Below are positions 3,164 through 6,869 of a stretch of DNA of 64,000 nt, one piece after another. The notes beneath the pieces were generated by a model that saw nothing but the letters and a program-made list of their open reading frames with translations, was not told the DNA's origin and searched no databases. The first letter of the stretch is position 1, and each line of letters begins with the position of its first letter. The translations under genes were made by a program, and so were the position numbers. The DNA is from Cryomorphaceae bacterium (lineage in GTDB: Bacteria > Bacteroidota > Bacteroidia > Flavobacteriales > Schleiferiaceae): positions 1 through 64,000 of the forward strand of contig WTIZ01000027.1 in assembly GCA_011525035.1 (NCBI GenBank). The letters run 5' to 3'.

Positions 3164-3171
3164 AACCTTTG
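3164..3171 (+). promoter_or_regulatory. Weak candidate -7 box for the YraN-like gene
   Basis: AACCTTTG differs from TAnnTTTG only at the first base. It ends 3 nt before the ATG at 3175, which would make a leaderless transcript. It also argues against the upstream in-frame TTG at 3169, which lies inside the box. Confidence 0.3.
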
Positions 3172-3174
3172 TGC

Positions 3175-3495
3175 ATGGACTATAGATTGTATGAAAAGCA
3201 TGCAGCAGCCTACCTGAGAAATGACCATTGCGAGGTCCTGGTCGAAAACTACCGACGCTCGCGCACTCAGATTGATGTTGTTGCTCGAAAAAATGGCGTA
3301 TTGATTGTTGCTGAAGTGAAATACCGGAAGCACGGAGGGCTTCCTGAAGGGCTAATTTCCCATGGGCAAAAAGAGCGTATTCACCGAGAAATAGGTCCCT
3401 TAATGGTCAAGTACCACTGCAACGAATGGCAGCTACTGCTCTTCTTTTACCGAGCGAAAAGCTTCGTACCTGAAATAATTGCCTTAGAATGTTAG
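3175..3495 (+). CDS. YraN/UPF0102 family endonuclease-like protein
   Basis: Small protein (106 residues) of the UPF0102 family, which has a restriction-endonuclease-like fold. The family signature is seen as an Asn-rich N-terminal helix followed by TQIDVVARKNGVLIVAEVKYRK-type residues, that is the Asp of IDVVA and the Glu-X-Lys of AEVKYR, which form the putative metal site. The usual Gly-Glu before Ile-Asp is Thr-Gln here, a deviation at a conserved Glu. The biological role of the family is not firmly established. An alternative TTG start at 3169 was rejected. Confidence 0.8.
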   Translation: MDYRLYEKHAAAYLRNDHCEVLVENYRRSRTQIDVVARKNGVLIVAEVKYRKHGGLPEGLISHGQKERIHREIGPLMVKYHCNEWQLLLFFYRAKSFVPEIIALEC

Positions 3496-3537: not shown

Positions 3538-3545
3538 TAACTTTG
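3538..3545 (+). promoter_or_regulatory. -7 box TAACTTTG for the RluB-like gene
   Basis: Exact match to TAnnTTTG, 18 nt before the ATG at 3563. The predicted transcript leader is only about 12 nt. Confidence 0.6.
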
Positions 3546-3562: not shown

Positions 3563-4465
3563 ATGCGCAACAGTCGTTCTAATAGCAACGGACCTCGTCG
3601 AGGAAAGTCTCAAAACTCAAACAATCGCTTTGCGAGTGGCCCTAAGAAAACTTGGGACCGCGAGGAGAAAGGTGACCGTCCGCAGCGCGGTGCTCGCCCT
3701 GCGAAGAAATACAGAGGCGTTCGCAGCAAAACTGCAGAACAACTCAGTGGTGCCAGCGACGAAGTTCGTTTGAATAAGTATTTATCTAATGCAGGCATTT
3801 GTTCGCGTCGCGAAGCCGATGACCTCATTGGTGCTGGATTGGTGTCGGTCAATAATAAAGTCGTGACCTCCATGGGCTACAAAGTGAAGCCTACAGATGT
3901 CGTGAAATACAATGGCACCACGTTGAAGACAGATAAGTTGCGTTATGTACTTCTTAATAAGCCGAAGGGATTCCTTGCTTCGATGGACGATCCCAAAGCA
4001 CGCAAGACTGTTTTTGAACTTGTCGGGAATGCATGCAACGAAAGAATCTACCCTGTTGGGCAGATGGAACGCGGCAGCACTGGAGTTCTGTTGTTTACCA
4101 ACGATGCGGATACTGCAAAAAAATTGACCAAAGGAGTTAATGGTGCAGCGAACATCTATCATATAGTGCTTGATAAGCCGTTAAGTAAACAACAGCTCGA
4201 TACCATTGCCGCAGGCACTGTCTTAGAAGATGGACCGGTTCCGGTGGAGGAAATCAATTTTACCGACGAGAAGAACAAGCGCGAAATAGGCATGCGTATT
4301 CACGTAAACAAGCCTCGAATAGTGCGCCGTCTGTTTGCTCATTACGGTTTCGAGGTGGAGAAATTGGACCGCGTATCCTTCGCAGGTCTAACTAAAAAGA
4401 GATTAAATAGAGGCGATTACAGGCACCTCGATCCTAAAGAGGTGGGCTTCTTAAAAACGAGATAA
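3563..4465 (+). CDS. RluB/RsuA-type pseudouridine synthase, catalytic Asp substituted
   Basis: 300 residues. A basic, Ser/Arg/Asn-rich tail (1-60) precedes an S4 RNA-binding domain (about 68-115) and an RsuA-type pseudouridine synthase domain (about 126-290). In active family members the catalytic Asp lies in the motif GRLDxxTxG. Here the motif reads GQMERGSTG (166-174), so Arg, Leu and the catalytic Asp are Gln, Met and Glu (E169, codon 4067-4069). The fold is otherwise well kept, including RIVRR near the C-terminus. It could be inactive, an altered enzyme, or an RNA-binding ribosome assembly factor. It has its own -7 box and is followed 4 nt later by the AsmA-like gene. Confidence 0.85.
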   Translation: MRNSRSNSNGPRRGKSQNSNNRFASGPKKTWDREEKGDRPQRGARPAKKYRGVRSKTAEQLSGASDEVRLNKYLSNAGICSRREADDLIGAGLVSVNNKVVTSMGYKVKPTDVVKYNGTTLKTDKLRYVLLNKPKGFLASMDDPKARKTVFELVGNACNERIYPVGQMERGSTGVLLFTNDADTAKKLTKGVNGAANIYHIVLDKPLSKQQLDTIAAGTVLEDGPVPVEEINFTDEKNKREIGMRIHVNKPRIVRRLFAHYGFEVEKLDRVSFAGLTKKRLNRGDYRHLDPKEVGFLKTR

Positions 4466-4469
4466 GCGA

Positions 4470-6869
4470 ATGCGCAAGGCATTGAAGGTTCTTGGTATAC
4501 TGTTCGGGATAGTGGTGTTGCTGCTAGGTGGCGCCGCCGGGTACATTTATACGCAACAAGATGCCATCATCGCCGGCGGCGTAGCGAAGATTAACGAGCA
4601 GCTCAAGGCACCCGTTTCTGTGGGTAGTATAGAACTTGATTTGCTCGGTGGATTCCCTAGAGTACGAATCGCACTGAATGACGTGCGTATCGAAGACCCC
4701 CTCCGTAACAACGAATTTCTCCTAGAGGCCCAATATGTGGGTCTAGGCATGAACGTATTTTCCGTTATTCAAGGGGAATATGTGGTCGAAGAATTAAGTG
4801 TAAGCGAAGGCCGTTTGCATTTGTTCGACAATGGGAAAGAAGCGAATTGGGATTTGTTTAATTCCACAGAAGGTGATGCGTCCACGAGCGTCGGATTGGA
4901 CCGCGTTGAACTTCAGAATTTGGCCCTTACCTACCTTGCCCCTGCAGACGGCATCGACTATACGTGTTATGCAAATAGTGCTGTTCTTTCCGGGGTCATT
5001 GATGAAGCAATCACCTTGAGCGGACGCGCGGACCTCATAGAAAATGAGCTGCGTTTAGATCAAGAACTCTGGGTACGTGAGGCAGCACTTTCAGGAGCCT
5101 TCGAGTTTAATAGCGAAGCAAATAACTGGGAGATCTCCTCGTCAAAAATCAATGTGAATGGCGGCTCTTTGAGCGGCTCTTTGAATCAAGACGGTGGTGA
5201 ATTGGCACTAGAAACTGGCGATCTATTGCCCGTAATGGAAAGTTTACCGCTGCTCGAATTTGAAGATATTTCTATCGAGAAATTCAACAGCTCGCTGCGC
5301 TGGAAAGGTACCTACGATCAGTGGGCGCTATACCTTCAACCGGCGGGTAGCGCATTCTCTTACAAAGGGATTTCCATTTCAGACTGCAGTGCCAGCGTTG
5401 ATATTCTTTGGGACGATGTTCCTAGCATCAACATTGAAAACATCGCCCTGAAAACGACCACAGGAGAGTTGCGCGGTTCAGCTTCTTTGGACGGTAAAAA
5501 ACCATTATTGAGTGCCAATGTTGAGGGCGGCTCTAACCTGAGTGAACTCTTCGCTTTCGTCGATATCGAAACGCTCAATAATCCTATGGGATTCTGGAGC
5601 GGCTCTGAGCTTACCATTGCACAACGCTTCAACAATTGGGATGAGTTTGAGCCCATTGGAGAGACTGTGTTTGAAGGGAATTTACAGTTGAAAGAGGTGA
5701 GCTTTGGGATCAGCGAGAGTAACATCAACTTTGAAAATCTTGAGGCGGAATTAACCGTAAAAGGCGATGATATCAGAGTCGATCGCTGCTTCGTGCAGAG
5801 TGGACCGAACAACGCAGTGGCCACAGGAGCTGTCCTTGATGCATTGAACGGCCGACCACAAGTGGCGTTGCGACTAGAAAGCCCGACCATAGATGCAGAC
5901 CCCCTACTCTTTTGGGAGTTTGAAGACAGTGAAGACCAGGACGATGATTTCGGATTCGATTTTGAGGTGGACCTGTTCATCGACAACCTCAACCTAGGTA
6001 AGTTCGACGGTAAAGGATTGCGAGGAACCATATACAACCGAGGCACAAAGCTTCTAGGAAGAGAAATGCGCATTGACGGATGTGGCGGAACCTTTAGAGG
6101 GAATTGGGCCTTGGCAGAAGAATCTACGGGCAGCCGTTTCTGGAGTTCAGCATCTTGTACAACCATAGAAATGGACCAGCTTCTGAAGAGCTTCGACAGC
6201 TTTGATATTGAAGACTTGGATGAAAGTAATTTGAAAGGGACGGTGAACGCGACAGCGGAATTGACGTTCCACTTCGATAGAGAATGGGACGTTATCTCAA
6301 AGCGCACCAGTATTGACGCTGAGGCTGAGGTACGAAACGGAACCCTGCAGAACTACGCACCGCTCCAAGAGCTTAGTGCCTTTGTGGACCGCGACGAACT
6401 CTCCCGCATCGACTTTCCGTATTTAAAGGGGCCGTTCCAGATTCGCGGGGACACCTTGATTATACCAGAGACTCGCGTGGACAATAGTGCCATCAATCTA
6501 TGGGTGAACGGTTGGCAGAATCTAGAGACCGATGATATCGAATATAGCATCCGAATTGGGCTCAAGGATTTGGCCTTGCGCGGGAAGAATTCGAACCGCG
6601 ATTTGGGAACTTGGGTGGCAGAGGCTGAAACCGAAAATCAGCCCTACATGAGACTTCTAGTGGGCTGTAACCTCGACGACCCATGCATCAGCTTGGACCG
6701 ACAGCAGATTCGCACCTCCTTAAAGTCTACCATTAAGCAAGAGAAAGAAGACCTAAAGACGCTCTTCAAGCGCGACGAAGAACAGGAACGTCAAAACGAC
6801 AGGAATAAGGGCAGTTTTGAATTGCTCTGGCCAGAATCTGACAGCCTACAGGTTCACTTAGGCAGGTAA
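4470..6869 (+). CDS. AsmA-like outer-membrane biogenesis protein
   Basis: 799 residues. One N-terminal transmembrane helix (about 7-28) is followed by a long, mostly beta-strand periplasmic region, the layout of AsmA/TamB-type proteins that are thought to move phospholipids between membranes. The early segment with AGGVAKINEQL and the phrase GSIELDLLGGFPRVRI resemble the AsmA N-terminal domain, and the later DxLxIPETRVDNSAINLWVNG-like stretch resembles the AsmA C-terminal domain. The C-terminal ~60 residues are charged. It starts 4 nt after the RluB-like gene and is probably co-transcribed. It ends directly against the convergent AlkD-like gene. Confidence 0.82.
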   Translation: MRKALKVLGILFGIVVLLLGGAAGYIYTQQDAIIAGGVAKINEQLKAPVSVGSIELDLLGGFPRVRIALNDVRIEDPLRNNEFLLEAQYVGLGMNVFSVIQGEYVVEELSVSEGRLHLFDNGKEANWDLFNSTEGDASTSVGLDRVELQNLALTYLAPADGIDYTCYANSAVLSGVIDEAITLSGRADLIENELRLDQELWVREAALSGAFEFNSEANNWEISSSKINVNGGSLSGSLNQDGGELALETGDLLPVMESLPLLEFEDISIEKFNSSLRWKGTYDQWALYLQPAGSAFSYKGISISDCSASVDILWDDVPSINIENIALKTTTGELRGSASLDGKKPLLSANVEGGSNLSELFAFVDIETLNNPMGFWSGSELTIAQRFNNWDEFEPIGETVFEGNLQLKEVSFGISESNINFENLEAELTVKGDDIRVDRCFVQSGPNNAVATGAVLDALNGRPQVALRLESPTIDADPLLFWEFEDSEDQDDDFGFDFEVDLFIDNLNLGKFDGKGLRGTIYNRGTKLLGREMRIDGCGGTFRGNWALAEESTGSRFWSSASCTTIEMDQLLKSFDSFDIEDLDESNLKGTVNATAELTFHFDREWDVISKRTSIDAEAEVRNGTLQNYAPLQELSAFVDRDELSRIDFPYLKGPFQIRGDTLIIPETRVDNSAINLWVNGWQNLETDDIEYSIRIGLKDLALRGKNSNRDLGTWVAEAETENQPYMRLLVGCNLDDPCISLDRQQIRTSLKSTIKQEKEDLKTLFKRDEEQERQNDRNKGSFELLWPESDSLQVHLGR

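Follow-up and report, generated by a model that had tools for sequence, protein, structure and literature searches.

What an rRNA pseudouridine synthase does for its host once residues needed for catalysis have been replaced is the question raised by a gene in a Cryomorphaceae bacterium. We analysed 64,000 nt of contig WTIZ01000027.1 (positions 1–64,000; the window, to whose forward strand all coordinates below refer), in which an ORF at 3563–4465 encodes a 300 aa RsuA-family protein of the RluB type, predicted from the ORF, Pfam matches and AlphaFold model to be non-catalytic. A basic, low-complexity N-terminal tail (residues 1–64, 3563–3754), predicted to be disordered (pLDDT <50), is followed by an S4 RNA-binding domain (residues 68–114, 3764–3904; Pfam 51.3 bits, E 9.2e-14, cut-off 22.8) with an SRRE anchor, in which Arg82 corresponds to Arg17 of Escherichia coli RluB. 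The PseudoU_synth_2 domain, which has the catalytic fold, follows (residues 128–259, 3944–4339; 47.4 bits, E 3.2e-12, cut-off 26.8), and this order of domains is the one expected by descent of the RsuA family. From residue 71 onward the pLDDT of the AlphaFold model is mostly above 78. The model matched RluB with RNA (PDB 4lgt) at Z 23.4 (rmsd 3.8, 232 aligned residues, 30 % identity) and RluF (PDB 3dh3) at Z 23.3, indicating that the pseudouridine-synthase fold has been kept. In both subclades of the genus, most members have a conserved start of the tail (3563–3640, MRNSRS...GP...NRF), though it is predicted to be disordered, and the N-terminal tails of canonical relatives are unlike it.

E. 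coli RluB, the 23S Ψ2605 synthase (PDB 4lgt and 9cl9), has the same domain order and fold as the window protein, as well as the S4 Arg17, Tyr140 and Arg194. However, Arg108, Leu109, Asp110, the HPS loop, Arg138 and two positions of motif III are replaced in the window protein, which has a long basic N-terminal tail whereas RluB has a C-terminal extension. By sequence, the best PDB match was E. coli RluF, the 23S Ψ2604 synthase (3dh3, 112.8 bits), which is equal to RluB by fold; unlike RluF-like paralogues, the window protein lacks the NHEKEY and GLNRQIRRM signatures. The canonical RluB-type protein of the family, represented by Phaeocystidibacter luteus (L066), is 52 % identical to it with the same order of domains, but canonical family orthologues keep GRLDRATTG, KIYxV and SGKNRIVRR. 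The label 'RluB-type', given in the initial annotation, is reasonable yet unproven, as all NCBIfam equivalog scores of the window protein were far under the cut-offs (RluF 126, cut-off 318; RsuA 92.5; RluB 86, cut-off 290). Canonical relatives also scored below the RluB cut-off (130.9 and 130.0), and the RluB model thus does not reach into Bacteroidota. With the general model TIGR00093 the window protein scored 102.6, below the cut-off of 109.3, and its canonical relative L066 scored 150.6.

The gene is preceded by a syntenic UPF0102 (YraN) gene (3169–3495, Pfam) and followed after 4 bp by an AsmA/YhdP-like gene (4470–6869; Pfam AsmA and YhdP both below cut-off), its syntenic partner throughout the genus. 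Wherever the locus was covered and a match was found, the order metG, LD-carboxypeptidase, YraN, RluB-type gene, AsmA was seen in both subclades of the genus, and the neighbourhood was partly the same (metG, LD-carboxypeptidase, AsmA) in canonical relatives such as L066. This conservation indicates that the RluB-type gene is ancestral and was changed in place. Horizontal replacement was rejected on the basis of orthologue comparison, codon analysis and synteny. The ORF had also been credited with a good promoter box, TAACTTTG at 3538–3545, which we take to match the Bacteroidetes -7 motif. Given that the window contains 31 copies of this pattern, compared with a chance expectation of 41, and that a sigma-70 scan found no promoter, the box carries no evidential weight.

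Among the 25 genomes of the genus that were searched, 22 yielded a complete orthologue. G083 contained the orthologue as two fragments, the first reading SQMER, and only an RluF-like gene was obtained from G076 and G080 (~74 % complete genomes). None of the 22 complete orthologues has the canonical site: nine carry QME (GQME in eight, SQME in L010) and 13 carry SMD or TMD. The eight QME genes from other genus genomes are 70–99 % identical overall to the window gene, and the nine differ in synonymous codons (Glu GAA/GAG, Gln CAG/CAA). The QME proteins form a conserved clade, the motif being found in 9/9 complete subclade orthologues, which settles a check proposed in the initial annotation. In the rest of the family (f1), the site is canonical in 57 of the 58 genomes with a complete gene; the sole exception, L027 (G013), reads GPLDR for GRLDR and is otherwise canonical, and as a single sequence it could contain an error. 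One genome of this family, G033, has two RluB-like genes (L123 and L163), the second 39 % identical and clustering on the tree with sequences from other families; it is probably foreign, or may be contamination.

Motif II of the window protein (residues 166–174, 4058–4084) reads GQMERGSTG, where the canonical form is GRLDRxTTG. A phmmer alignment to E. coli RluB pairs Arg108 with Gln167, Leu109 with Met168 and Asp110 with Glu169 (codon GAA, 4067–4069). The ORF, this alignment and the nine orthologues bear out the initial observation that Glu stands for the catalytic Asp and that the neighbouring Arg and Leu have changed. Two residues expected of an active synthase, the catalytic Asp of GRLD and the base-flipping Arg, are therefore replaced; two others, the Tyr and the Arg of motif III, are present as Tyr199 (4157–4159, RluB Tyr140) and Arg252 (RluB Arg194, equated by counting along the phmmer alignment). 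Motif III (4307–4330) reads NKPRIVRR for canonical G(R/K)NRxVRR, with Arg252, Arg255 and Arg256 kept. The loop corresponding to RluB residues 131–138 (HPS..E..R in RluB, canonically HPSxGxxK) has become KGVNGAAN (4130–4153). The QME subclade as a whole keeps Tyr140, Arg194 and Arg197 (RluB numbering), but is without the His-Pro of this A2602-bulge loop and without Lys at position 138: in 9/9 members the His is Lys or Thr, the Pro is Gly or Asn and position 138 is Asn, compared with His and Pro in 115/115 canonical orthologues and Lys in 114/115. The equivalents of Gly191 and Asn193 are gone in most members of the clade.

In RluB, Arg108 fills the position vacated when the uridine is flipped out, and the available text of PMC3919597 gives an activity of 0.6 % for R108A and of ~3 % for Y140F, describes the RluA Arg-to-Met and Arg-to-Lys variants and the Asp mutants of TruA, TruB, RluA and RsuA as inactive, and has loop 131–138 binding the A2602 bulge. 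The sister subclade presents a different combination of changes. Asp110 is kept in 13/13 members, with Arg108 replaced by Ser or Thr, Tyr140 by Leu, Ile or Val, Lys at 138 by Gln and Arg197 by His, Asn or Gln. Both subclades have lost Arg108, Leu109, Lys at 138 and Gly182 of TNDG, and these common losses suggest that the ancestor of the genus had probably abandoned catalysis, with Asp-to-Glu following later in one subclade. The Glu is one sign of a broader loss of the active site, not the key lesion. A fold that selection preserves although catalytic residues are absent is the pattern of a pseudoenzyme, and catalysis in the QME-clade protein is very probably gone. We infer this strongly from the missing residues, which, like the orthology, the purifying selection and the recurrence described below, are read from sequences.

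We asked how widely the Asp has been lost. An order-wide search gave a match at E<=1e-40 in 284/296 genomes, and across 251 distinct sequences the position was occupied by D in 212, G in 20, E in 12, N in three and Q, L, A and S in one each. Family counts, which leave out fragments L104, L160, L161, L162 and L164 (and, in another count, L257) and in which G088–G097 carry no group label and partly duplicate f1 and f3 genomes, showed loss in 17/34 sampled genomes of f3 (17 genera), presumably the Flavobacteriaceae as one f3 match coincides in coordinates with that of the named Croceitalea genome, in 5/9 of f10, 2/28 of f19 and 9/22 of the window's genus, and in 0/58 of the rest of f1, 0/9 of f5 and 0/8 of f15. 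We regard Asp as the ancestral state, since every sampled family outside f3, f10, f19 and the window's genus has it. On a tree of 94 representatives, built after removal of the motif columns, the Asp changed nine times (bootstrap range 8–10), at least seven of these changes being forced by well-supported branches; Glu arose four times and Arg108 changed eight times. An earlier 80-row tree gave five Asp changes, at least four of them forced, and the bootstraps of neither tree are fully settled.

The forms from Flavobacteriaceae (GRLG in Mangrovimonas, Tamlana and Yeosuana) and Kordia (GRLER) resemble the window protein in having lost the Asp while keeping S4 and a separate canonical RluF. They differ in that the loss is independent, Arg108 is kept, the Asp has become Gly or Glu, the Tyr is mostly Phe, and motif III is different. 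Some proteins keep the Asp and have an eroded motif III, with GRLD changed to GKLD, GKMD, GQLD or DPID (L222, L224 and L237 of f3, L244 of f10, L345–L348 of f19). These are likely to be inactive too, in which case the counts of Asp loss underestimate the loss of catalysis. A class of 21 genomes that keep Asp and Arg but have lost another residue takes in natural variants from other orders, and was not counted as loss. The main thrust of the initial interpretation stands; its emphasis on Asp-to-Glu as the key change does not, since the sister subclade has the Asp without the base-flipping Arg and the Tyr, and since the Asp is lost independently across Bacteroidia to Gly, Asn, Ser, Ala, Gln or Leu as well as Glu.

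The RluF-like paralogues served as a control. In the window genome (92.8 % complete), protein and PF00849 searches found two RsuA-type matches, the window gene and a canonical RluF, the latter passing the NCBIfam RluF cut-off (331.9 against 318). No second canonical RluB-type copy, a possibility that the initial annotation had raised, was found in this genome among six PF00849 matches; of the other four, three have an intact HRLD, and L035 is readable only short of the motif. RluF-like paralogues keep the Asp in 24/24 readable cases and the Arg and Tyr in 25/25. Two RsuA-type matches per genome, an altered RluB-type and a canonical RluF-like protein, were likewise found in Mangrovimonas, two Tamlana, Kordia, Yeosuana, Myroides and one further member of the Flavobacteriaceae. 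With RluF-like paralogues intact in genomes that carry the altered gene, the loss is specific to the RluB-type orthologue group. Among nine f15 genomes of 300–600 kb, an endosymbiont-like size, seven contain an RluB-type gene (L248–L254), and no RluF-type match was found in the nine at E<=1e-15. This retention suggests that the RluB-type protein is hard to lose and hints at near-essentiality. However, the complete f15 genes keep Asp and Arg108 in 8/8 cases, so their retention cannot separate a role of the protein from catalysis.

Several other explanations of the window gene were considered. An assembly or sequencing artefact at 4067–4069 is vanishingly improbable, as nine of nine genomes encode the same residues with different codons and nothing was found in its favour. 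Decay under relaxed selection might be suspected from the many changed catalytic positions, but is very unlikely: frames are intact throughout the subclade, synteny is kept, and dN/dS is about 0.05, like that of canonical orthologues. Median values were 0.047 for the QME clade (8/36 pairs with 0<dS<1.2), 0.032 for the sister clade (20 pairs) and 0.061 for canonical relatives (40 close pairs), calculated by the Nei-Gojobori method in an experimental Biopython module with saturated-dS pairs omitted. These ratios indicate that the gene is under purifying selection in the QME clade, in agreement with the earlier view of an intact, non-decayed gene. Of the 59 positions that are >=95 % invariant among 119 canonical orthologues, 11 have changed in the QME clade; all 11 lie among the 45 positions outside the S4 region, and none among the 14 within it (hypergeometric P 0.036). 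It is also quite improbable that the protein is still an active synthase, with Glu169 as the nucleophile and another residue in the place of Arg108. Glu retains a carboxylate, the protein still has Tyr199, Arg252, Arg255 and the greater part of the fold, QME is invariant despite synonymous codon turnover, and the repeated origin of Glu on the 94-row tree could be read in the same way, particularly as L274 and L341 of f19 keep Arg and Tyr. In these two proteins, GRMER and GRMEK, Glu stands beside a retained Arg108 and Tyr140 and a largely intact motif III, making them the strongest candidates for a working Glu, should one exist. Against an active window protein, Arg108 is gone as well, and R108A alone costs >99 % of activity according to the available text of PMC3919597. 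Asp-to-Glu takes one base change, making its recurrence mutationally cheap. In the sister subclade the same Arg loss is accompanied by loss of Tyr140 and Arg197. The earlier suggestion that Glu is used in an altered way is disfavoured. We found no stand-in acidic residue confined to the QME clade; the three positions that gained an acid are all acidic in the sister clade too. TruA D60E is reportedly inactive, which we could not confirm, and we found no Asp-to-Glu mutants of pseudouridine synthases in the open-access literature.

A non-catalytic protein could instead have taken up a function away from the ribosome, in which it might, for example, use S4 to bind a different RNA, or bind a protein partner. 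S4 domains as a class recognize many kinds of RNA, the HPS loop of the substrate groove is lost and the genus-specific N-terminal tail is kept, all of which would fit such a role. Nevertheless, we consider it unlikely. The S4 Arg by which RluB anchors the H93 stem-loop (Arg17, window Arg82) is kept in 293/293 complete RluB-like loci. The presumed target is also unaltered: genus members from which 23S rRNA was recovered have an unchanged H93 stem-loop with both target uridines. In G082 (QME clade, L039) and in G078 (sister clade, L042) the 23S rRNA includes GAGACAGUUCGG with these two uridines, which we take to be U2604 and U2605. Several differing 23S sequences in one bin, G069 (L038, L043, L047, L050 and L053), suggest mixed rRNA contigs, and data from this possibly mixed bin were used with caution. 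One common non-catalytic role would, moreover, be a simpler account of recurrent loss in many lineages.

We therefore favour, with a probability of roughly 0.6, the explanation that the RluB-type protein is a recurrent pseudoenzyme, acting as an rRNA-binding ribosome-assembly factor in which catalysis is dispensable. Loss of base flipping and of the nucleophile, with the S4 anchor and fold kept, points to an rRNA-binding protein without chemistry. The window protein, the only RluB-type protein found in the genus, would retain the S4 grip on rRNA and the synthase fold, and the target uridine would be neither flipped out (no Arg108) nor attacked (no Asp110). The rRNA would still be bound during large-subunit assembly, the protein most likely serving as a chaperone or placeholder, either on the stem-loop of the peptidyl-transferase centre or close to it. 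Given the partly changed RNA-contacting surface (the equivalents of loop 131–138, Gly191 and Asn193), the stem-loop that is bound may not be the same one. The gene would be kept by selection on the function of the protein rather than on pseudouridine, and the same release from catalysis would have occurred several independent times in Bacteroidia. The initial suggestion of a non-catalytic RNA-binding factor is supported by the intact ORF, low dN/dS, S4 anchor and the replacement of two residues needed for activity. More tentatively, the RluB-type protein may be selected across Bacteroidia mainly as a non-catalytic assembly factor, its activity having been abandoned at least seven times independently with RluF intact.

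There are precedents for roles of this kind. According to the available text of PMC11194073, RlmB and RlmL variants devoid of catalytic activity continue to promote 50S assembly in E. coli, RlmB and RlmKL have assembly roles independent of catalysis, and the growth and assembly of a strain without 10 modification enzymes were not rescued by expression of RluB. The dead RsuA variant D102N eases some growth defects (PMC10525438, available text), and a survey of biogenesis factors, in the part available, ascribes to RluD a role in biogenesis beyond catalysis (PMC12641178). The title of PDB entry 9cl9, 'WT 12C IM fraction, B-b3 with RluB bound', reads as that of a cold E. coli large-subunit assembly intermediate. 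E. coli RlmB, RlmKL, KsgA and RsuA resemble our proposal in having a role of the protein in assembly or stress apart from modification (PMC11194073, PMC10525438); however, these are active enzymes with a second role, whereas in the window protein the active site itself appears to have been lost in nature. Our searches of the open-access literature found no relevant described pseudoenzyme of the RsuA family, no Flavobacterium ribosome structure paper with pseudouridine, and nothing usable on Blattabacterium rluB, Bacteroidetes 23S pseudouridine or Flavobacteriaceae synthases; no kinetoplastid precedent for a non-catalytic synthase was found there or in the available text of PMC8316566. As far as the open-access literature goes, a recurrent RluB-type pseudoenzyme has not been described before.

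It has long been asked whether rRNA-modifying enzymes persist because of the mark they leave or because of the protein itself, as single deletions in E. coli have almost no effect. In the present case the chemistry appears to have been lost repeatedly in nature while the protein stayed, both in the uncultured genus of the window and in cultured genera such as Mangrovimonas, Tamlana, Yeosuana and Kordia. The automatic annotation of the RluB-type gene in Flavobacteriaceae as a pseudouridine synthase may often be wrong. The wider finding appears to be that an orthologous rRNA pseudouridine synthase has turned pseudoenzyme repeatedly in Bacteroidia. If this is true, large parts of the Flavobacteriaceae and some neighbouring families would be without the pseudouridine yet retain the protein, and would represent a natural set of separation-of-function mutants.
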